Under the pieces are notes generated by a model. The model had not been told where the DNA came from. It ran no database searches and saw only the letters and a list, made by a program, of their open reading frames with translations. From the NCBI GenBank assembly GCA_014238155.1, contig JABABQ010000032.1, positions 62,001 to 126,000 of the forward strand: a stretch of 64,000 nucleotides of DNA, in the 5' to 3' direction. Below are positions 1,992 to 44,492 of this stretch, in pieces (the stretch's first letter is position 1; each line of letters opens with the position of its first letter). This DNA comes from Rhizobiaceae bacterium. GTDB taxonomy: Bacteria; Pseudomonadota; Alphaproteobacteria; Rhizobiales; Rhizobiaceae. Made by a program: the position numbers and the translations under genes.

Positions 1992-3074
1992 TTAGTTCAA
2001 AGTATAAGGATGCGGCCACTTGTAACCGGTGGCATTCACCGCTTCGAGATAATTATTCATGACCTCTGTGCCGGGCATGCCACGTCCGTCGGCATCTTTT
2101 GCCTGACGGCTTGGAAATCCAGCAAGCGATTTGGCCCATCCAGCACGGGCTTCTTCTGGCAAAACTTTCATCTTGGCGCCGACTTTTGCCAAACCTTCAA
2201 GGCCAGCTTTCTGGCGTGCATTCAGCGATTTGCCGGCTTGCTCCTCATAGCCACGACCGACCTCAACCAGAATTTTCTGAACCTCAGCTGGCAAACGGTT
2301 GAACGACCGCAGGTTCATGGTCAGTCCGTTCACACCCATGGCTCCAAAGCCGATCTGAGTATAATGCGGTGCTGGCTCATAAAATTTGAAGCCGAGATAG
2401 GCCGATGGGAACATCAACCATCCATGGTAAACCCCGGTCTGAAGCGACAAATATCCGTCCGGCAATGTCGACTGAACCGGCACAGCACCGGCAAATTCCA
2501 GCCATGGCAGGTTTGGTCCAGCCCCACCGACTTTAACGCCCTTGAGATCATCAACTGTGTCCCATGGGTCGGTTGTACCCAGATGATAATTGTCCCACCC
2601 GTGCAGGCCAAGCAGCTTTTGCTTGTACTCTTTCTCAAATGTGTCGGTCAGCCACGGAGTTTTGTCATAAACAGCGCGTGTGGCCTGCATCTGCTGTACT
2701 GAATCCTGAGGCCCAAACGGCGCATAATAAGGGAAATTATGCAAAAACAGCTTGGCGGGCTCAAAGCAGAAGCAATAAGCTCCAATATCTAAAATTCCGT
2801 TCTGCACTGCTTCCAAAGTCTCCGCAACGCCGGCAATAGATCCACCATATCCTTCGACAAATTCAACAGTGTGTTCAGTTTCTGCTGCCACGCGCCGCTT
2901 CACTTCCGGCACAAAATATTTTTCAAGATCTGACACATAGACCGCAGGTCCGCTGGGGTGTCCGGCTCCTGCGCGCAAAGTGAATGAATCAGCACTGGCC
3001 GTGGTTACGGCACCAAGGGTGGTCGACGCAAACAGCGCCATCACCGCAAGTTTACCCAATTTATTTGAACTCAT
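1992..3074 (-). CDS. dctP: TRAP transporter solute-binding protein (DctP family)
   Basis: A 360-residue periplasmic protein. It starts with a Sec signal peptide of about 27 residues (basic N terminus, AVMALFASTTLGAV core, cleavage after ASA), followed by FTLRAGAGHPSGPAVYVSDL, typical of DctP/DctP-like receptors of tripartite ATP-independent transporters. It captures a carboxylate or related acid and hands it to the DctQM permease. The ATG at 3074 has a strong GGGAGGA ribosome binding site five bases upstream; an upstream in-frame start lacks one. Its permease genes dctQ and dctM lie 2.5 kb away on the opposite strand, separated by a DUF2585 gene and an insertion sequence. A terminator follows. 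A 17-bp motif shared with the dctQ upstream region sits 66 bp before the start. Confidence 0.9.
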   Translation of the reverse strand: MSSNKLGKLAVMALFASTTLGAVTTASADSFTLRAGAGHPSGPAVYVSDLEKYFVPEVKRRVAAETEHTVEFVEGYGGSIAGVAETLEAVQNGILDIGAYCFCFEPAKLFLHNFPYYAPFGPQDSVQQMQATRAVYDKTPWLTDTFEKEYKQKLLGLHGWDNYHLGTTDPWDTVDDLKGVKVGGAGPNLPWLEFAGAVPVQSTLPDGYLSLQTGVYHGWLMFPSAYLGFKFYEPAPHYTQIGFGAMGVNGLTMNLRSFNRLPAEVQKILVEVGRGYEEQAGKSLNARQKAGLEGLAKVGAKMKVLPEEARAGWAKSLAGFPSRQAKDADGRGMPGTEVMNNYLEAVNATGYKWPHPYTLN

Positions 3075-3139
3075 GAATTCCTCCCGTTGTAAACGCCTCA
3101 ATGGCGTAAATCTGTGCGTTGCGACAAAGCTTTTCGGCT

Positions 3140-3243: not shown

Positions 3244-3560
3244 CTACCCCCCCGATTGCCAGTATTTTACCGCTTCAAGTGGCCAAAGCAGCATCAAAAT
3301 GTTCAACAACAATCCGTCACGAATGAAGAAGATAGTGAAGGCTTCCGCAAGGATGAACAGCAATATGCTCGCCCAGACGGGCAGCAAACGGGCCAGATGG
3401 AAACCGACAATCATGGCCAAACAATCCGAGACCGAATTGAGAACGCTGTCGCCAAAATAATCCAGCGAGATTGTCGCTTCACGATAATGATTGATAATTG
3501 CTTCGGTGTTTTCGACAATTTCCCAGGCGACTTCGATTAATGTTGCCACAATCAGCTTTG
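3244..3560 (-). pseudogene. DUF2585 (UPF0314) membrane protein, 3' fragment cut off by an insertion sequence
   Basis: The C-terminal 105 residues of a DUF2585 family protein, recognisable by [35 protein letters not shown] and [18 protein letters not shown]. It includes two or three hydrophobic segments. The insertion sequence at 3565-5106 separates it from its own 5' part at 5107-5353. Removing the element and one copy of the AACC duplication joins the halves in frame as [16 protein letters not shown]. The stretch between the FYG and VEN landmarks is then 31 residues, as I recall for intact homologues. The fragment has no start codon of its own with a convincing ribosome binding site, so it is very likely not translated. 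Confidence 0.88.
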
Positions 3561-3582: not shown

Positions 3583-3643
3583 GCCTTAATCTCGGCAGTC
3601 TTTGCTGATTCAGTTTCCTTGTTGATTTGGGAGATTGATTGCG

Positions 3644-5029
3644 ATGATGGGACCACGTCAGGAAGCGCAGGCGGCTCTGTTTTATGAGTTTTGCTTAGAG
3701 GATCATGTTCCGGATGATCACTCATTACGGTCGATTGACCGTTTTGTTGACCTGTCCAGCATCCGCCAGCACCTCGCAGCGTTTTACAGCTCAACCGGAC
3801 GCCCTTCGATTGATCCCGAACTGATGATCCGCATGTTGCTGGTTGGGTACTGCATGGGTATTCGGTCTGAACGACGCCTGTGTGACGAGGTTCATCTGAA
3901 CCTGGCGTATCGATGGTTCTGTCGCCTCGACTTGGGCGATGCTGTTCCAGACCATTCGACCTTTTCCAAAAACCGGCATGGCAGGTTCCGTGACAGTGAT
4001 CTATTGCGGCATGTGTTTGAGACAGTCGTTGCCCGATGCATTGATGAGGGCCTGGCCAGTGGCCAACGTCTTGCCGTGGATGCCAGTTTGATCGAAGCCG
4101 ATACCAATCGTCAGAACTCCACATCGAAAGAAGAATGGGAGCCGGACAAGATTGATCCTGAAGTTGCGCCGCGTGCTGTGCGCGAGTATTTGGACACGCT
4201 GGATGATGCAGCTTTTGGTGCTGCCACTCCCGTTCAACCGAAGTTCACCTCCCATTCTGATCCGGCATCACAATGGACTGCAGCACGCAAAGGACCTGCC
4301 TATTTTGCATATTCCGCCAACTACATGATCGATACGGACAATGCTGTGATCCTTGATGTCGAAGCGAGCCGATCAGTTCGACAGGCCGAACTTGGTGCCA
4401 TGCAGACCATGATCGACAGAACCAAAAATACTTTCGACATCAACCCAGAACGTATGATTGCGGACACAGCCTATGGCACAGGCCCGCTGCTCGAATGGCT
4501 TGTCGAAGAACGTGGCATAGCTCCCCATATTCCAGTGATAGATAAATCTGGTCGCAAGGATGGAACATTCGAGCGCGCCGATTTTGCTTATGATGATGAG
4601 AATGACATCTACATATGTCCGGGTGGCAAAGAACTCAAACAGAGCCGTCGTGCTTTTACTAATCCACGTATTCCGAAAGCTGATAAGTATGGAGTCATTC
4701 GCTATCGCGCCCAAAAAGCCGATTGTGATGGTTGTTCGTTGAAACAGCAGTGTTGCCCGAAAGCGCCCCAGCGCAAGGTAACCCGAACCATCCACGAACC
4801 TTCGCGTGATGTCGCCCGCAAAATCTACCAGACCATCGAATACGCAATATCATGCAAGCTACGTAAAAAGGTAGAGATGCTGTTTGCCCACCTCAAGCGC
4901 ATTCTGAAACTCGACCGGCTTCGATTACGAGGGCCATGCGGAGCCAAAGATGAATTCCACCTCGCAGCAACCGCCCAGAACCTCAGAAAACTCGCAAAAT
5001 TGATCCCAGAACCAAACCCAGCAGCCTGA
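3644..5029 (+). CDS. Transposase, IS1182-like (DDE type)
   Basis: A 461-residue DDE transposase. The N-terminal DUF772-like domain carries DHSLRSIDRFVDL and GRPSIDPELMIRMLLVGYC. The catalytic core follows: first Asp in RLAVDASLIEAD (about residue 146), second in MIADTAYGTG (about 274), Glu in KKVEMLFAHLKR (about 411). A Cys cluster (CDGCSLKQQCCPK) lies between them, as usual for this group. The ATG at 3644 is chosen because GGGAG lies about 10 bases upstream; a TTG three codons earlier is less likely. It is the only gene in the element, fills it nearly end to end and is undamaged, so the element may still be mobile. Confidence 0.93.
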   Translation: MMGPRQEAQAALFYEFCLEDHVPDDHSLRSIDRFVDLSSIRQHLAAFYSSTGRPSIDPELMIRMLLVGYCMGIRSERRLCDEVHLNLAYRWFCRLDLGDAVPDHSTFSKNRHGRFRDSDLLRHVFETVVARCIDEGLASGQRLAVDASLIEADTNRQNSTSKEEWEPDKIDPEVAPRAVREYLDTLDDAAFGAATPVQPKFTSHSDPASQWTAARKGPAYFAYSANYMIDTDNAVILDVEASRSVRQAELGAMQTMIDRTKNTFDINPERMIADTAYGTGPLLEWLVEERGIAPHIPVIDKSGRKDGTFERADFAYDDENDIYICPGGKELKQSRRAFTNPRIPKADKYGVIRYRAQKADCDGCSLKQQCCPKAPQRKVTRTIHEPSRDVARKIYQTIEYAISCKLRKKVEMLFAHLKRILKLDRLRLRGPCGAKDEFHLAATAQNLRKLAKLIPEPNPAA

Positions 5030-5580: not shown

Positions 5581-6087
5581 ATGAACGTGCCTATACGTCT
5601 TTCCAGAGCGATTCATCTGGTATCAGCTCTGTGGACTTTGGGTCTCGCTATCCTCATATTTTTTGATGTGGCGGGTCGTGGCCTGCTCAATCAGCCGATA
5701 CCGGGAACCAAGGAAATTATCCAAAATTCGGTTGTCGCGATTACATTCCTGCAATTGCCTCTGGCGATATTTACCGGCTCCATGCTGCGAACCACAATTT
5801 TCGCCGACGCCGTTTCGCCATTTTTTCGTCGATTGCTGCGTAGTTTTGGTTATTGCCTGGGGGTCCTGTTTTTTATCGGCCTGGTATTGAGCACCTATGA
5901 ATCAGCTTACGATGCCTGGCGGATTGGAGAATATGAAGGAGAAGGAGCCCTGCGCGTGCCGACCTGGCCGGTTCGTGGTCTTGTTCTGCTTATGGGAATC
6001 TTCGGGGCTTACGCCTATATGGCGATGCTCTTTTATGACTGGCGCAACCGTCTGATTGACGAGAATCAGGCGCCGGGATCGGTATGA
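5581..6087 (+). CDS. dctQ: TRAP transporter small permease (DctQ family)
   Basis: A 168-residue inner-membrane protein with four predicted helices: about residues 8-30, 45-65, 87-108 and 128-150. FDVAGRGLLNQPIPGTKEI matches the DctQ pattern of an Arg-rich loop after the first helix and the GxxE element before the second. It pairs with DctM to form the membrane part of a sodium-driven TRAP transporter; DctP at 1992-3074 is the likely receptor. dctM begins 21 bp downstream, so the two are one transcription unit. The ATG at 5581 has no strong ribosome binding site; a six-codon frame at 5564-5584 ends across this start (ATGA overlap) and might couple translation. Confidence 0.88.
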   Translation: MNVPIRLSRAIHLVSALWTLGLAILIFFDVAGRGLLNQPIPGTKEIIQNSVVAITFLQLPLAIFTGSMLRTTIFADAVSPFFRRLLRSFGYCLGVLFFIGLVLSTYESAYDAWRIGEYEGEGALRVPTWPVRGLVLLMGIFGAYAYMAMLFYDWRNRLIDENQAPGSV

Positions 6088-6108
6088 CCACCTTGAGGAG
6101 ACTTCAAA

Positions 6109-7428
6109 ATGGGTGGTGATATTGCACTCTGGATGCTGGCCCTGCTGGTCGGCATGATCTTATTTGGTGTGCATATTGGCGTCTCCTTTGCCATCTGCAG
6201 TGCGTTGGGCGTGTACCTGATGCTGGACAGCGTGGAAGCAGCGCTTGCCATTTTAGGCAACACCGCATTTGAGGCGGTTCGAAAAGACGTTTTTGCAGTA
6301 ATCCCCCTATTTGTACTGATGGGCGATTTTGTATCGCGATCGGGGGCGGCGGCCGACCTTTATCGAATATGCGACAGGGTACTGCGTCGACTTCCCGGGC
6401 GTCTTGCCATTGCCACGATCGCTGGCAACACGGTGTTTGCTGCGGTGACCGGAGTGTCCATCGCTGCCGCTGCTGCCTTCTCCCGAATTGCCTATCCGGA
6501 AATGCGTAAACTTGGCTATAAACAAACCTTTGCGCTGGGTGCTGTTGCTGGCTCAGCTTGTCTCGGCATGTTGATCCCACCATCGGTACTATTGATCGTC
6601 TGGGCAATCTTGACAGAGATGAGCGTCGGCGCACTGTTCATTGCTGGCATCCTGCCGGGCGTGGTTCTGGCCACATTGTTTTCCGGCTACGTCATAATCG
6701 CAGCCATTCGCAATCCAAAAATCGCCCCCCCTTTTGAAGCACCACTGGTTGAAGACACGCCCGAAGAACGTCGCTCAGAATTGATCGGCGGGCTTGGCAT
6801 TCTGGGACTAATACTGCTGGTCATAGGCGGCATCTGGACCGGCGTTTTCACTCCAACCGAGGCCGCCGGATTTGGCGCAATTGGAGCGTTGATTATCGGC
6901 GTTATCAAGGGAATGCGCGGTCGAGAGATCCTGGAAGCCATATTTCAAGCTGGCAAAACCACCGCCCCAATCATGTTCCTGCTGATCACCGCACAAATGT
7001 ATTCGCGGCTTTTGGCTCTGGGCGGCGCCGTCAACTATATCAAAGGCACGTTCCTGACCCTCGGGGTCGATCCATTCATGATCATCGGGCTGATGGTTGT
7101 AATCTGGATATTGCTCGGCATGCTGATCGATTCCGTGTCGATCATTTTGCTGACTGTACCAATTTTTGCACCTATCGCCCTCACATTGGGCATCGATCCC
7201 CTGGCATTCGCCATATTTGGAATTCTGGTGATCGAAGCTGGCCTGTTGACGCCACCTTTCGGACTTCTGGTTTACACGGTCAAAGGCTCAGTACCCGACC
7301 CGACCGCCAGTCTGGCAAAAATATTCAAGGGATCATTCCCCTATTTTCTGCTGATTCTGGTCGCGGCTTTCATCGTGCTGTTAATTCCGCAGCTCGCCAG
7401 TTGGTTGCCCGAAATCATGCTCCGATAG
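6109..7428 (+). CDS. dctM: TRAP transporter large permease (DctM family)
   Basis: A 439-residue polytopic inner-membrane protein with 11-12 hydrophobic segments. It shows the DctM marks: IPLFVLMGDFVSRSG early, GSACLGMLIPPSVLLIVWAILTE (positions about 143-165), GVFTPTEAAGFGAIGAL in the middle and LLTPPFGLLVYTVKG near the end. It forms the ion-coupled transport channel. AGGAG lies 8 bases before the ATG. Length is normal for the family. The substrate cannot be read from the sequence; the nearby hydroxylase and deacetylase suggest a small organic acid or a ring-cleavage product (inference). Confidence 0.92.
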   Translation: MGGDIALWMLALLVGMILFGVHIGVSFAICSALGVYLMLDSVEAALAILGNTAFEAVRKDVFAVIPLFVLMGDFVSRSGAAADLYRICDRVLRRLPGRLAIATIAGNTVFAAVTGVSIAAAAAFSRIAYPEMRKLGYKQTFALGAVAGSACLGMLIPPSVLLIVWAILTEMSVGALFIAGILPGVVLATLFSGYVIIAAIRNPKIAPPFEAPLVEDTPEERRSELIGGLGILGLILLVIGGIWTGVFTPTEAAGFGAIGALIIGVIKGMRGREILEAIFQAGKTTAPIMFLLITAQMYSRLLALGGAVNYIKGTFLTLGVDPFMIIGLMVVIWILLGMLIDSVSIILLTVPIFAPIALTLGIDPLAFAIFGILVIEAGLLTPPFGLLVYTVKGSVPDPTASLAKIFKGSFPYFLLILVAAFIVLLIPQLASWLPEIMLR

Positions 7429-38625: not shown

Positions 38626-38851
38626 CGCGGTTCACTTCAATTGCCTGGAATATGTAATCCTCCCACTTGCGTTTGGTTTATCCCATAGCGGGCATGGAAA
38701 CAATCGCAGCTGATAAAATCTTCTCGCCTGCCCCCGCTTCAAGCTTGATCACTTGTTTGTTCAAATCCGGGGATGGACGCTTGCAACCCTTGTAACTACC
38801 CCCGTCTCGCTCCTAGATATGGGGCTGGATAGAACTGTTAAGGCACAGAAA

Positions 38852-39817
38852 ATGGCCAATCACCACACCAAAGTACTGATCATCGGATCTGGTCCTGCTG
38901 GCTATACTGCTGCGATTTATGCAGCACGCGGCATGCTGGACCCCATCCTCGTTGCCGGCATGCAACAAGGTGGTCAGCTGACAATCACCACAGATGTCGA
39001 AAACTATCCAGGATATGCAGATCCGGTTCAGGGTCCGTGGATGATGGAACAAATGCTGGCGCAAGCTGAAAATGTTGGTGCCCGGATCATGTCGGACTCT
39101 ATTACCAAAGCGGAACTCAATGTCCGCCCCTTCCGGTTTCAAACCGAATCCGGAGATACCTACACCGCCGACAGCGTTATCATCTGCACCGGTGCGCAGG
39201 CCAAATGGCTGGGCCTGGAATCCGAAGAGAAATTCATGGGTTTTGGTGTATCCGCCTGCGCCACGTGCGACGGTTTCTTCTATCGCGACAAACATGTGAT
39301 CGTGGTCGGTGGTGGCAATACAGCGGTTGAAGAAGCGTTATATCTGTCCGGTCTGGCTGCAAAAGTTACCGTCATCCACAGGCGCGACGAATTCCGTGCC
39401 GAGCGCATATTGCAAGACCGGCTGTTCAAAAAATCAAATGTCGAAATTATCTGGGACAGCGAGCTGATTGAAATCAAAGGTAAAGATGGCCTGATGCCTT
39501 CGGCTGAATCAGCAGTTATCCGCGATCGCAAGACAGGCAACATTCAGGACACCCCTGTGGATGGTATCTTCATCGCCATCGGCCATGCACCGGCTGTTGA
39601 ATTGTTCAAAGATCAGTTGAAACTGAAGTCGTCCGGCTATCTTTGGACAGCCCCTGATTCAACCGCCACAGAAATTCCCGGTGTTTATGCCGCTGGAGAC
39701 GTTACTGATGACATTTACCGTCAAGCTGTAACTGCTGCGGGCATGGGCTGCATGGCGGCACTTGAAGCGGAAAAATACCTCGCCGAGATGGAAAGCATCG
39801 TCGAAGCCGCGGAATAG
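38852..39817 (+). CDS. trxB: Thioredoxin-disulfide reductase
   Basis: A 321-residue FAD/NADPH flavoenzyme that reduces thioredoxin. FAD site: IIGSGPAGYTAAIYAARG (residues 10-27). Redox-active Cys136-Ala-Thr-Cys139 in SACATCDGFFY. NADPH site: VVGGGNTAVEEALYLS followed by HRRDEFRAE. C-terminal FAD contact: GVYAAGDVTDDIYRQAVTAAGMG. The ATG at 38852 begins MANHHTKVLIIG; upstream codons are not conserved. Length is normal. DUF1272, a dienelactone hydrolase and a LysR gene follow. Confidence 0.97.
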   Translation: MANHHTKVLIIGSGPAGYTAAIYAARGMLDPILVAGMQQGGQLTITTDVENYPGYADPVQGPWMMEQMLAQAENVGARIMSDSITKAELNVRPFRFQTESGDTYTADSVIICTGAQAKWLGLESEEKFMGFGVSACATCDGFFYRDKHVIVVGGGNTAVEEALYLSGLAAKVTVIHRRDEFRAERILQDRLFKKSNVEIIWDSELIEIKGKDGLMPSAESAVIRDRKTGNIQDTPVDGIFIAIGHAPAVELFKDQLKLKSSGYLWTAPDSTATEIPGVYAAGDVTDDIYRQAVTAAGMGCMAALEAEKYLAEMESIVEAAE

Positions 39818-39848: not shown

Positions 39849-40163
39849 TCACCTTTGATCTGGGTGCACATCTTTCAATTTGCTTACAAAGTGCGAGATT
39901 GCCCGCGCCGAAAACTTACATTTCTTGCGAATGTTTCCAGCCGGTTGATTGTGCAGACCGAGCTTGGGATTTTCCCGATATGCACGTTTTGGACGTATGG
40001 GCCTGGGAACAAAATTGCCACCACAGGTCGGGCAAACGTTGTGAAGAACACTTTCTACGCAGTCGGCGCAATAGGTACATTCATAGGAACAAATTCGCGC
40101 GTCAGCAGATGCAGGCGGCAGATCCTTGTCGCACCATTCACAATTCGGGCGCAGTTGAAGCAT
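39849..40163 (-). CDS. DUF1272 domain-containing protein
   Basis: A 104-residue protein with a Cys-rich N-terminal half: CEWCDKDLPPASADARICSY, then CTYCADCVESVLHNVCPTCGG, about ten Cys that probably bind zinc. The motif RPIRPK follows and the C-terminal 40 residues are not conserved. This matches DUF1272, of unknown role. CTGGAG lies before the ATG at 40163. It faces trxB tail to tail. Confidence 0.88.
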   Translation of the reverse strand: MLQLRPNCEWCDKDLPPASADARICSYECTYCADCVESVLHNVCPTCGGNFVPRPIRPKRAYRENPKLGLHNQPAGNIRKKCKFSARAISHFVSKLKDVHPDQR

Positions 40164-40303
40164 TGGTATTTCTCCAGAAGGATCGGTTGCTTGGGTGGAC
40201 AGGAGTTGTAACAGATAATCACAGTTTTGAGCGATCACCTTGTTGAATAAATTGCCGTGACGTAGGCTTGTTCGACCAGGCAATGTCTAAAGGGAGAAAA
40301 CAC

Positions 40304-41191
40304 ATGCAACGGATGACCGCAAAGGACTTCGAACCTGAACTTTTGGAACTTTATGACTACTATGCCCACGGCATTATGACGAAACGTGAATTTCTTGATC
40401 GCGCTGGTAAATTCGCTGTAGGTGGTGTGACCGCCGTGGCGCTGCTCAAAATGCTGAGCCCGCAATATGCCATGGCTGAACAGGTGTCGTTTAACGACCC
40501 TGACATCAAGGCGACTTATGTGGATTACGATTCACCCAACGGAAATGGCAAGGTGAATGCCTATCTGGTGAAGCCCCGAGAATCCCCTGGGAAAATGCCG
40601 GCTGTCCTTGTAATTCACGAAAACCGTGGCCTCAACCCCTATATCAAAGATGTTGCGCGGCGCGTGGCCAAGGCAGGATTTATGGCTTTAGCCCCTGACG
40701 GACTGACGTCTGTCGGTGGGTATCCCGGCAACGATGAAGAAGGCAAGGCGATGCAAAAGACAGTCGACCGGGCCAAATTGATGAACGACTTTTTTGCAGG
40801 CTACGAACACCTGGCCGCAAGAGATGATTCAACTGGCAGGGTAGGCTGCGTCGGCTTTTGCTATGGCGGTGGCGTGTGCAATGCATTGGCCGTGGCCTAT
40901 CCGGAACTTTCAGCATCGGCACCCTATTATGGTCGACAGGCGAAGGCGGAGGACGTTCCAAGAATTCAGGCACCTCTGCTGCTGCACTATGGCGAGCTGG
41001 ACAAGCGGGTCAACGCCGGCTGGCCAGTTTATGAAGCAGCGTTGAAAGAGCATGGCAAAAAATATACTGCTCATGTTTATGAGGGTGCCAACCATGGCTT
41101 TCACAACGATTCAACACCTCGATATGACGAGAAAATGGCAGAGCTCTCGTGGAATCGAACCGTGGAGTTCTTCAACCTACACCTGGCATAG
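40304..41191 (+). CDS. Dienelactone hydrolase family protein (YghX-like)
   Basis: A 295-residue alpha/beta hydrolase. The first about 55 residues contain MTKREFLDRAGKFAVGG and a hydrophobic stretch ending before AEQV, a likely secretion signal, although the twin-arginine pair is not perfect. The hydrolase domain has VLVIHENRGLNPYIKDVARR, the nucleophile Cys in VGFCYGGG (about residue 187), LLLHYGELDKRVNAG (Asp) and YEGANHGFHND (His). It hydrolyses an ester or lactone; the true substrate is unknown. The ATG at 40304 has GGGAG upstream. Confidence 0.9.
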   Translation: MQRMTAKDFEPELLELYDYYAHGIMTKREFLDRAGKFAVGGVTAVALLKMLSPQYAMAEQVSFNDPDIKATYVDYDSPNGNGKVNAYLVKPRESPGKMPAVLVIHENRGLNPYIKDVARRVAKAGFMALAPDGLTSVGGYPGNDEEGKAMQKTVDRAKLMNDFFAGYEHLAARDDSTGRVGCVGFCYGGGVCNALAVAYPELSASAPYYGRQAKAEDVPRIQAPLLLHYGELDKRVNAGWPVYEAALKEHGKKYTAHVYEGANHGFHNDSTPRYDEKMAELSWNRTVEFFNLHLA

Positions 41192-41339
41192 GGTGGTTCA
41201 AGTTCGACAAAATAGGCTTGGGGAAGTGATGAATATTTACCCCAGGCCTTTGACCTGCCCAAAAAGCTCCCTATTCTGACAACGATTCAAGCCTGCGCCC
41301 CACTGTTTGGCATTGGCACAAGAGCGGCGGGAACCTGCT

Positions 41340-42242
41340 ATGCCCATGGACTGGGATAAATTGCGCATATTTTACAAAGTTGCCAATGCTGGCAGCTTCA
41401 CCCATGCGTCCGAAACACTGAATCTCAGCCAGTCTGCAATCAGCCGTCAGATTTCTTCTTTGGAATCAGAAGTGGGGGTGCCGCTGTTTCATCGCCACGC
41501 GCGGGGACTCATTCTTACCGAGCAGGGTGAAATTCTGTTCAAAGCGGCGGAAGATGTCACCGATAAATTGGAAGCTGCGGCAGGCCGATTGAGCGATTTT
41601 CGCGGTGCTCCCAAGGGCCCGCTCAGAGTTACAACAACAGTCGGCCTTGGCTCTGCATGGCTGGCCATTCGGATGCGGGAATTTGTTGATCTCTATCCCG
41701 ATATTCAAGTTGAACTGATCTTGAGCAATGATGAGCTTGATCTCGGCATGCGGCAGGCCGACTGCGCGATCAGATTGCGACAGCCGCTGCAACCCGACAT
41801 CATTCAACGACGATTGTTCACGGTGCATTTTCATGTATTTGCCACCCAGGACTATATCGACCGGTTTGGCGCCCCGGAGTCGGTAAAAGAACTCGACAAG
41901 CACAGACTGGTTGTCTGGGGTGATGGAACCCCAAGTTATCTGGCAGATGTCAACTGGATGCTGACAGCTGGCATGCCACCCGGCAAGGCCCGTATTCCGG
42001 TTTTGAAGATCAATTCAATTCTCGCCATCAAACGCGCCGTTCAACGTGGCGCTGGTCTGGCGCTGCTACCGGACTATTCAATTGAGGACGATTCCGGTCT
42101 GATACCTGTCATGTCATCGGCTGATATGGATGTTCCAAGTTTCGACACCTATTTCGCCTATTCATCGGAATTGCGAAATTCAGCCCGACTCAGCGCGTTT
42201 CGGGACTTTCTGCTGGATCAGGCTAAGAACTGGAGTTTCTGA
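41340..42242 (+). CDS. LysR family transcriptional regulator
   Basis: A 300-residue regulator. The helix-turn-helix is WDKLRIFYKVANAGSFTHAS followed by LNLSQSAISRQISSLE (residues about 4-45), then RHARGLILTEQGE. The effector-binding domain (about 92-300) has LRVTTTVGLGSAWLAIRM and RGAGLALLPDYSI. The ATG at 41340 begins MPMDWDKLR. LysR genes commonly follow trxB in Hyphomicrobiales. Its effector is unknown and no divergent target gene is present. Confidence 0.92.
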   Translation: MPMDWDKLRIFYKVANAGSFTHASETLNLSQSAISRQISSLESEVGVPLFHRHARGLILTEQGEILFKAAEDVTDKLEAAAGRLSDFRGAPKGPLRVTTTVGLGSAWLAIRMREFVDLYPDIQVELILSNDELDLGMRQADCAIRLRQPLQPDIIQRRLFTVHFHVFATQDYIDRFGAPESVKELDKHRLVVWGDGTPSYLADVNWMLTAGMPPGKARIPVLKINSILAIKRAVQRGAGLALLPDYSIEDDSGLIPVMSSADMDVPSFDTYFAYSSELRNSARLSAFRDFLLDQAKNWSF

Positions 42243-42569
42243 TCCCTTAATCTTTGGCAAATCGACCTAATCTGTTGACTAATTTGCAACACTACAGCCT
42301 AATTTTGCGCCTGCTGCAGGCCATGCCCTCACCGGCGGGGGCCGGAAATACCGTGTTTTTAGAGTTTTACGACACGGGAATAATATTGCCTGAAAACCTC
42401 ATAACTTCCTGAAAAAGGGAAAGGAATTTCACCTGTTTTTCTTACCAACTGCACAATAATCGAGCAGTTCCAGCCGACCCAATCCGACAACAAACCCAAG
42501 CTATGCACGTTACGCATAGCTCCCATGCATCGGACGTTATTGTAAATCTACGTTAATAAATCCATATCA

Positions 42570-42690
42570 GAAGGGAGAGACGCGCAAGGTTATCTCCTCC
42601 CAACCTGCGTCGATCCTACAGATGGCAGCGGTCTTCCTCCCTGACCCACCATCTTATCCTTAGCCGGACCGTCAGGTCCGGCTTTTTTTT
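42570..42690 (+). ncRNA. alpha-r14-type (NfeR1-like) trans-acting small RNA
   Basis: Three consecutive hairpins. Hairpin 1 (42579-42611): GACGC/GCGTC and AGGTT/AACCT stems with loop ATCTCCTCCC. Hairpin 2 (about 42620-42654): AGATGG/CCATCT and GGTC/GACC stems with loop TTCCTCCCT. Hairpin 3 (42663-42682): GCCGGACC/GGTCCGGC plus eight T. Two loops with anti-Shine-Dalgarno CUCC-rich sequence followed by a strong terminator is the layout known for the alpha-r14 family (NfeR1 in Sinorhizobium meliloti). The exact 5' end is a guess. It stands alone between lysR and aspC. Confidence 0.82.
42663..42690 (+). terminator. Rho-independent terminator of the small RNA
   Basis: GCCGGACC-GTCA-GGTCCGGC followed by eight T: a perfect 8-bp stem. 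Confidence 0.96.
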
Positions 42691-43068
42691 GCCCAATTTA
42701 TGGTTCAGATTCTCTTAAACGTTTGAATTCGGTGTTTTCACCAAAATTCCGAAAAAAACTGAAACCCGCACCTTTATTATTTGCTTAAGTCGAGTTAGAA
42801 ATACTGAAGCAACAGGATAGAGCACCGTTTATTTTGTTGGAATCGTGCAAAATTGGCGTATCGATTTTGTTGGTCGAATATGTTGGTATTTGCTGAATCA
42901 GGTAAATGAATTGCCTGTAGATACTAAGTAAGTTTAGTGCCGGGGAGAGAAATTATAAGCTTTCCGCGCAGCAGCCCGCAAACTATCCAGGCTAATTTCA
43001 CGATCCAGTGGAATGTCATTTCGGTGTTTAAAAGAAAGGGGTGTGCTTCTGTCGCAGGCAGCCGCCCC
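42691..43068. other. Non-coding stretch before an unassigned terminator
   Basis: About 380 bp after the small RNA and before a terminator at 43069, with no convincing gene. AT-rich at first, GC-rich toward the terminator. A rightward transcript ending at 43110 would have to start here; a second small RNA is possible. A 76-codon frame at 42937-43167 crosses the terminator and has no known domain. Confidence 0.45.

Positions 43069-43247: not shown

Positions 43248-44492
<1,245 letters not shown>

Follow-up and report, generated by a model that had tools for sequence, protein, structure and literature searches.

AbcR and NfeR1 are LsrB-controlled regulators of nutrient uptake in the rhizobia and their relatives, and they are classed as two families, alpha-r15 for AbcR1 and AbcR2 and alpha-r14 for NfeR1. 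Loops of these small RNAs (sRNAs) pair with the Shine-Dalgarno sites of mRNAs and block translation (PMC7143759, PMC8844928, PMC5461406). The alpha-r14 RNAs have three hairpins, each with an anti-Shine-Dalgarno (aSD) loop (PMC7143759), and in the NfeR1 promoter, from about -72 to -60, LsrB binds a motif of the form TGCA-N6-GCAT (PMC10746234). In A. tumefaciens, trxB is encoded directly upstream of vtlR, with abcR1 and abcR2 downstream (PMC7486931), and in Sinorhizobium abcR1 and abcR2 are found between lsrB and SMc01226 (PMC8844928). RNAs of the aSD type are also known from Rhodobacter, where CcsR1-4 follow the DUF1127 gene ccaF1 at the CIN1 locus and are processed from its transcript (PMC10253847). 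A two-loop RNA at lsrB was not reported in the portions of the literature searched, a scope outside which the surveys of the cuckoo RNA family and of del Val 2012 fall.

Locus and architecture of the RNA

The window, that is, the whole 64-kb stretch of DNA analyzed here, contained a LysR-type regulator gene on the plus strand (41337..42242; Pfam HTH_1 and LysR_substrate). A homolog was found at E ≤ 1e-60 in 59 of the 61 sampled genomes of the family, with one match in 58 of them and two in one. The gene was taken as the VtlR/LsrB ortholog because of homology and synteny, namely the homologs in the family, trxB upstream, and an aSD sRNA downstream. The upstream trxB gene, predicted to encode thioredoxin reductase (38753..39817, plus strand, start uncertain), matched NCBIfam TIGR01292 with 395.9 bits, over a cut-off of 343.45. 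Between trxB and lsrB were a gene of the YghX/dienelactone hydrolase family (40268..41191, plus strand; NCBIfam NF041440, 540.5 bits; Pfam DLH) and, from the list of open reading frames, a small ORF on the opposite strand (39849-40283, minus), and this separation of the two genes is a difference from the AbcR1/AbcR2 locus. An aspartate aminotransferase-like gene (43248-44480, minus strand) forms the downstream flank of the RNA.

The RNA itself was predicted to be transcribed from 42575..42690 on the plus strand, based on a sub-cut-off match to the alpha-r14 model at 42575-42689, on the distance between promoter box and start in NfeR1, and on 12 orthologs in the genus. The 5' end was predicted at either 42575, the start of the model match, or 42576, from the box distance. 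A preliminary description of this DNA, which placed the RNA at 42570-42690, was thus off by about 5 nt or less. It had also described an intergenic gene of the sRNA type, with two hairpins that expose aSD motifs in their loops and are followed by a terminator, and this anatomy was borne out by the fold, the orthologs, and their covarying stems. Hairpin SL1 (42575..42615, plus strand) carries the loop motif CUCCUCCC (aSD1, 42594-42601, plus strand; CTCCTCCC in DNA letters), and hairpin SL2 (42620..42654, plus strand) carries UUCCUCCC (aSD2, 42634-42641, plus strand; TTCCTCCC in DNA letters); for both hairpins the evidence is the fold, compensatory changes, and an arm-swap test. A GCCGG-type intrinsic terminator follows (42662..42690, plus strand), with its stem at 42662-42683, a T-run to 42690, and a GUCA loop that is without an aSD motif. 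The fold of 42570-42690 had an energy of -48.5 kcal/mol against a mean of -31.62 for shuffled sequences (z -4.43), and none of 200 shuffles was as low. Both aSD motifs were unpaired in the ensemble, with a mean probability of 0.99 each.

The position of the RNA and the LsrB-type box in front of it were both overlooked in the preliminary description. Like AbcR1 and AbcR2, the window RNA is encoded after lsrB on the same strand, with trxB upstream, and it can be said to occupy the AbcR place, as judged by gene order. Unlike the tandem AbcR1/AbcR2 arrangement, a single aSD RNA was found within 1.1 kb of lsrB in the window.

Conservation in the genus and promoter region

Fifteen genomes made up the genus set, and 14 of these contained a close ortholog of the LysR gene (71-100% identity); the genome without one, G160, is 61% complete. 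Ahrensia sp. R2A130 (L079) was taken as a member of the genus because its LsrB identity and motif position were the same as those of G151 (L057). An aSD motif was found 96-354 nt downstream of the lsrB ortholog in all 14 genomes having lsrB, and the complete two-loop RNA was found at 12 of the 14 loci. The remaining loci were L046, in which the contig end cuts the RNA, and L055, in which the RNA is degenerate. The L055 locus, from a genome of 0.9 Mb (G163), has kept lsrB; its RNA is without a clear second hairpin or terminator, and the box is absent from its usual place. Both aSD motifs were unpaired with a probability of at least 0.90 in 10 of the 12 orthologs, the exceptions being L048 (0.51 for aSD1) and L051 (0.69 for aSD2).

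Across the 12 orthologs, CUCCUCCC and CCUCCC were invariant and the stems varied. Covariation was counted on an alignment of the 12 sequences with a structure of 29 pairs given by hand, in which 83.8% of the cells pair. Changes on both sides were found in 18 of the 29 pairs, compared with 9.6 in shuffles, and none of 500 shuffles reached 18; when the partner was slid by 1-3 columns, the paired cells fell to 20.8-46.7%. All six pairs of the outer stem of SL2 had changed on both sides, and 61.3% of their cells pair in this alignment. The count of further pair types, one of five covariation measures, was unexceptional (34 compared with 30.6; 56 of 500 shuffles), and RNAalifold recovered the terminator alone from the MAFFT alignment. 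In the arm-swap test, the hairpin energy was -11.76 kcal/mol with own arms and -6.95 kcal/mol with swapped arms for SL1, and -12.93 and -5.93 kcal/mol for SL2, with none of 20000 permutations reaching the mean for own arms in either case. The own arm was the best partner by hairpin energy in 5 of the 12 species for SL1 and in 9 of the 12 for SL2. When a shorter left arm was used for SL2, 130 of the 20000 permutations matched or undercut the mean for own arms in SL2, and none did so in SL1. A DNA similarity search (E ≤ 0.001) found fragments of the terminator region only, in 2 of the 150 other genomes of the family.

By themselves, the motif counts in the window are within chance: YCTCCTCCC was found once (0.63 expected) and TTCCTCCC twice (2.09 expected) in 64 kb. 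The conservation goes beyond chance. Because both loop motifs persist in 12 orthologs of the genus and the stems carry compensatory changes, it is very likely that the sRNA gene at 42575-42690 is real, with its transcription predicted.

Upstream of the RNA is a putative LsrB-type box, TGCA-N6-GCAT (42504..42517, plus strand), which is an exact match to the promoter box of NfeR1 (PMC10746234). Applying the NfeR1 box-to-start distance to this box gives a start at approximately 42576, relative to which the box is at about -72 to -60, a feature that is not specific to alpha-r14. The predicted -35 element (TTGTAA, 42540..42545, plus strand) and -10 element (CATATC, 42563..42568, plus strand) are separated by a 17-nt spacer. 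In an alignment of 12 promoters, 11 from the genus and one from a sister genus (L095), the TTG of the -35 element was invariant; of the CATAT in the -10 element, three letters did not vary and the other two were conserved in 90% or more. A scan of the sRNA region with the sigma-70 consensus found no promoter and did not pick up the -35 element, and the published VtlR consensus, GCAT-N3-TG-N3-T (PMC7486931), was absent from the sRNA promoter.

The box form occurs six times in the 64-kb window, with 5.68 expected by chance, so the evidential value of the box is in its position and not in its occurrence count. In the window it is 90 nt upstream of aSD1, and 12 of the 13 genus loci scored had, 89-90 nt upstream of aSD1, a box that matched in 7 or 8 of the 8 half-site letters; the mean best box score elsewhere in those loci was 5.18-5.76 letters. 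The box together with TTG at the spacing of the window was found seven times in the genome, compared with once for a reversed control pattern. Among 21 AbcR-locus promoters, 17 also had a box matching in 7 or 8 of the letters, at a distance of 76-93 nt, and the same kind of box was present at 6 of 41 alpha-r14 loci. Since promoters of both kinds carry it, the box cannot separate alpha-r14 from alpha-r15. The window box is within a longer palindrome (42498-42522; AGCTATGC-N7-GCATAGCT) that had a terminator-like score for the minus strand.

Relationship to the alpha-r14 and alpha-r15 families

The Rfam family giving the window RNA the most bits was alpha-r14 (RF02344), with a match of 26.0 bits that spans both hairpins and the terminator. 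The anti-hemB family scored 24.5 bits with the best E-value (0.0011), spanning SL2 and the terminator only, and the other eight Rfam matches at E ≤ 10 scored 14.7-21.2 bits. The lowest score was that of CcsR1 (14.7 bits), far under its cut-off of 65.3; the RNAs of the CcsR group are of the aSD type, as is the window RNA, and differ from it in being processed from an upstream gene transcript, whereas the window RNA has its own predicted promoter. The preliminary description had named the RNA alpha-r14/NfeR1-type and had proposed a covariance-model search with this family as a check, a poor score counting against the name. The top Rfam score and the two aSD loops speak for the name; the score itself, far under the cut-off of 58.8, and the presence of two aSD loops instead of three speak against it, and plain membership in alpha-r14 was rejected on these two grounds. 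Like NfeR1, other alpha-r14 RNAs, and the wider group of cuckoo RNAs, the window RNA has aSD motifs in hairpin loops and variable stems, and like NfeR1 it has the TGCA-N6-GCAT box approximately 72 nt before its predicted start; unlike them, its terminator loop is without an aSD motif.

A further point against the name is that the only alpha-r14 RNA above the cut-off in the genome of the window is at another locus, behind a DUF1127 gene. This RNA (L002; G000:C36:138924-139045, minus strand; 73.3 bits) contains the CCUCC motif three times and is encoded after an ORF of 50 amino acids (Pfam DUF1127, 55.7 bits), in a placement like that of ccaF1 and CcsR at CIN1 of Rhodobacter (PMC10253847). Copies of alpha-r14 over the cut-off were found in 11 of the 15 genus genomes, none of them at lsrB loci, and 9 of the 12 copies were linked to DUF1127 by sequence pattern; the remaining copies were L140, which was skipped, L132, at the edge of a contig, and L144, without a match. 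The 11 lsrB-locus copies of the genus that alpha-r14 matched at E ≤ 0.1 scored 22.2-46.7 bits, all below the cut-off.

Several features are shared with alpha-r15. The M1 motif of AbcR (PMC5461406), CUCCCA in the first hairpin, is present at 42597-42602 with its loop unpaired, so that an SL1 loop with CUCCUCCC, which includes this motif, is common to the window RNA and AbcR1/AbcR2. Both have an LsrB-type box upstream, and the GCCGG-type terminator stem is found in the window RNA and in most of the AbcR-locus RNAs inspected. Further traits of AbcR are activation by VtlR/LsrB and Hfq binding; on the first of these, the window sequence shows the TGCA-N6-GCAT box and not the published VtlR consensus. 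What is missing is the second AbcR motif, M2 (GUUCCC or UUCCCCUC between SL1 and SL2): the window RNA does not have it, and its second aSD is in the SL2 loop. The linker form UUCCCCU was found at none of the 14 genus loci, compared with 20 of the 22 other family lsrB loci having an aSD motif. A direct search of the genome with alpha-r15 (RF02345; E ≤ 10) did not list the window RNA, the only match being one of 19 bits elsewhere. No match of at least 40 bits was found in the 15 genus genomes, and one below this score, 35.2 bits in G153, was also elsewhere. The search with all Rfam models reports a single, best hit where members of a clan overlap, so it alone cannot settle the question of alpha-r15. 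The grounds for rejecting membership in alpha-r15 were its covariance score and the absence of the UUCCCCU linker.

For comparison with the rest of the family, 29 other lsrB loci (L095-L123) were analyzed. An aSD motif was found downstream of lsrB at 22 of these, and alpha-r15 matched at or above the cut-off, on the same strand and downstream of lsrB, at 14 (12 of 20 and 2 of 9). No aSD motif was found in the stretch examined at the other seven, one of which (L123) had a stretch of just 124 nt, and this indicates that the link between lsrB and an sRNA is not universal. For two of these seven, in G004 and G060, a model (R1) built from the 12 genus RNAs matched on the lsrB strand at distances of 1.5 and 4.9 kb beyond lsrB. 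R1 gave a median of 36.9 bits for AbcR-locus RNAs (n=21) and 29.2 bits for alpha-r14 RNAs (n=30; p 6e-5), the ranges overlapping and the alpha-r14 loci being fetched, high-scoring ones.

At the sister-genus locus L095 (G034) the UUCCCCU linker is present, and alpha-r15 scored 37.4 bits, just under its cut-off of 40. The LsrB tree placed the genus and L095 on one branch, with values of 94/77 that do not reach the star mark of the tool, which, by parsimony, suggests that the AbcR form came first. Mixed layouts are found elsewhere: UUCCUCCC is in the linker at L118, L165, L169, and L170. The best R1 match outside the genus among 151 genomes (L161; G041:C1:575447-575575; 55.4 bits) has aSD motifs in the SL1 loop, in the linker (UUCCUCCC), and in the SL2 loop (UUCCUCCC), and no lsrB homolog was found in its 3.1-kb locus. 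Three-loop, alpha-r14-like RNAs are found downstream of lsrB at L091 (Oricola cellulosilytica; L102 has the same sequence) and L164, which makes replacement by an alpha-r14 copy possible.

The window RNA is therefore classed here as an AbcR-locus RNA by its place, and between alpha-r14 and alpha-r15 by its layout. The explanation that probably holds is that it is an LsrB-controlled AbcR-locus RNA, remodeled within the genus so that its second motif is now in the SL2 loop, and that it represses uptake genes. A broader reading is doubtful: alpha-r14 and alpha-r15 may not be separate families at all, and instead belong to a single lineage linked to LsrB. At the lsrB locus, the second motif would have moved from the linker (as UUCCCCU or UUCCUCCC) to the SL2 loop, and a third loop would have been gained in other lineages. 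The window RNA would then be a bridging form, with one RNA at this locus covering the roles of both AbcR and NfeR1.

Evolution in place from AbcR has a competitor in replacement, in which a divergent, translocated paralog of alpha-r14 (NfeR1/cuckoo) took over the AbcR position at lsrB and lost its third aSD loop. The alpha-r14 model does give the most bits, a genus ortholog (L058) reaches 46.7 bits, the RNA with three loops downstream of lsrB in Oricola gives 51.9 bits, and the promoter box is of the NfeR1 type (PMC10746234). This origin is nevertheless unlikely, since the 11 listed lsrB-locus copies of the genus are all under the cut-off, the terminator is without an aSD motif and shares its GCCGG type with AbcR loci, R1 ranks AbcR-locus RNAs above alpha-r14 RNAs, and the over-cut-off alpha-r14 copies of the genus are mostly found with DUF1127. 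It is very improbable that the region belongs to lsrB, as its 3' untranslated region with the terminator, instead of being an independent sRNA. The RNA is on the strand of lsrB, 332 nt downstream of it, and includes the sole terminator-like site found on the plus strand within 42200-43000; against this are its own conserved box and -35 and -10 positions at fixed distance, its conserved loops and covarying stems, and the fact that AbcR, at the same place, is transcribed separately and activated by VtlR (PMC7486931). Inverted repeats that arose by chance, with CU-rich loops, can be dismissed almost entirely, since, even if the aSD motifs by themselves occur in 64 kb about as often as chance predicts, the loops are invariant across 12 orthologs and the covariation weighs strongly against chance.

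Other candidate aSD RNAs were seen in the genome of the window. L003 (G000:C75:24383-24468; 40.3 bits with alpha-r14), with two aSD hairpins at the stop codon of a phasin gene (Pfam Phasin_2) and immediately after it, is a possible 3'-UTR-derived aSD sRNA. Some of the weaker R1 matches (17.6-22.5 bits; G000 C33:68703-68772, C36:89130-89248, C1:160146-160261, and C38:222937-223015) may be further aSD RNAs. The L049 locus contains, at 3481-3534 on the plus strand, a sub-threshold match to the whalefall-1 RNA family (32.4 bits; cut-off 37).

Proposed function and putative targets

As a positional counterpart of AbcR (alpha-r15), the window RNA would be a stand-alone regulatory RNA of approximately 116 nt, with an LsrB/VtlR-dependent promoter of its own downstream of lsrB, and would be activated by LsrB. 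The AbcR layout, with the first aSD in the SL1 loop and UUCCCCU in the linker, would have given way in the genus to a layout in which a second motif with a CCUCCC core is in the SL2 loop. Either loop would pair with the Shine-Dalgarno site of target mRNAs and block translation, and may also speed mRNA decay. The targets are probably nutrient-uptake genes such as dctP, which encodes a TRAP solute-binding protein. The conserved NfeR1-like layout at the AbcR place suggests that a circuit from LsrB to an aSD RNA persists while the RNA is remodeled, in a branch that is missed by both Rfam models at their cut-offs. The different layouts provide a natural series for testing how the position of the motif, in linker or loop, affects target choice.

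Putative targets were screened among 50 genes of the window by matching the loops only, with starts taken at the first ATG. The preliminary description had pointed to dctP and greA as genes with matching Shine-Dalgarno sites, and both ranked high. The site of dctP (ORF 1992-3101, minus strand; Pfam PF03480), GGGAGGAA at 3078..3085 on the minus strand, was complementary to aSD2 in 8 of 8 letters and came first of the 50 genes; greA was joint second with dctM, with a match of 7 letters. The mean best loop match was 4.10 letters in Shine-Dalgarno regions and 3.33 letters in gene interiors. The loops match generic Shine-Dalgarno sites and any anti-Shine-Dalgarno sequence prefers such sites, so the target list is weak evidence, and the match agrees with a transporter target without showing one. 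An energy-based screen, with paired flanks and energy-chosen starts, was discarded because energies of a similar size were obtained with a random control (1% level, -19.3). By reading, a transposase-like ORF (3635-5029 of the window) is found between dctP and the dctQ/dctM-like ORFs (5581-7428, plus strand).
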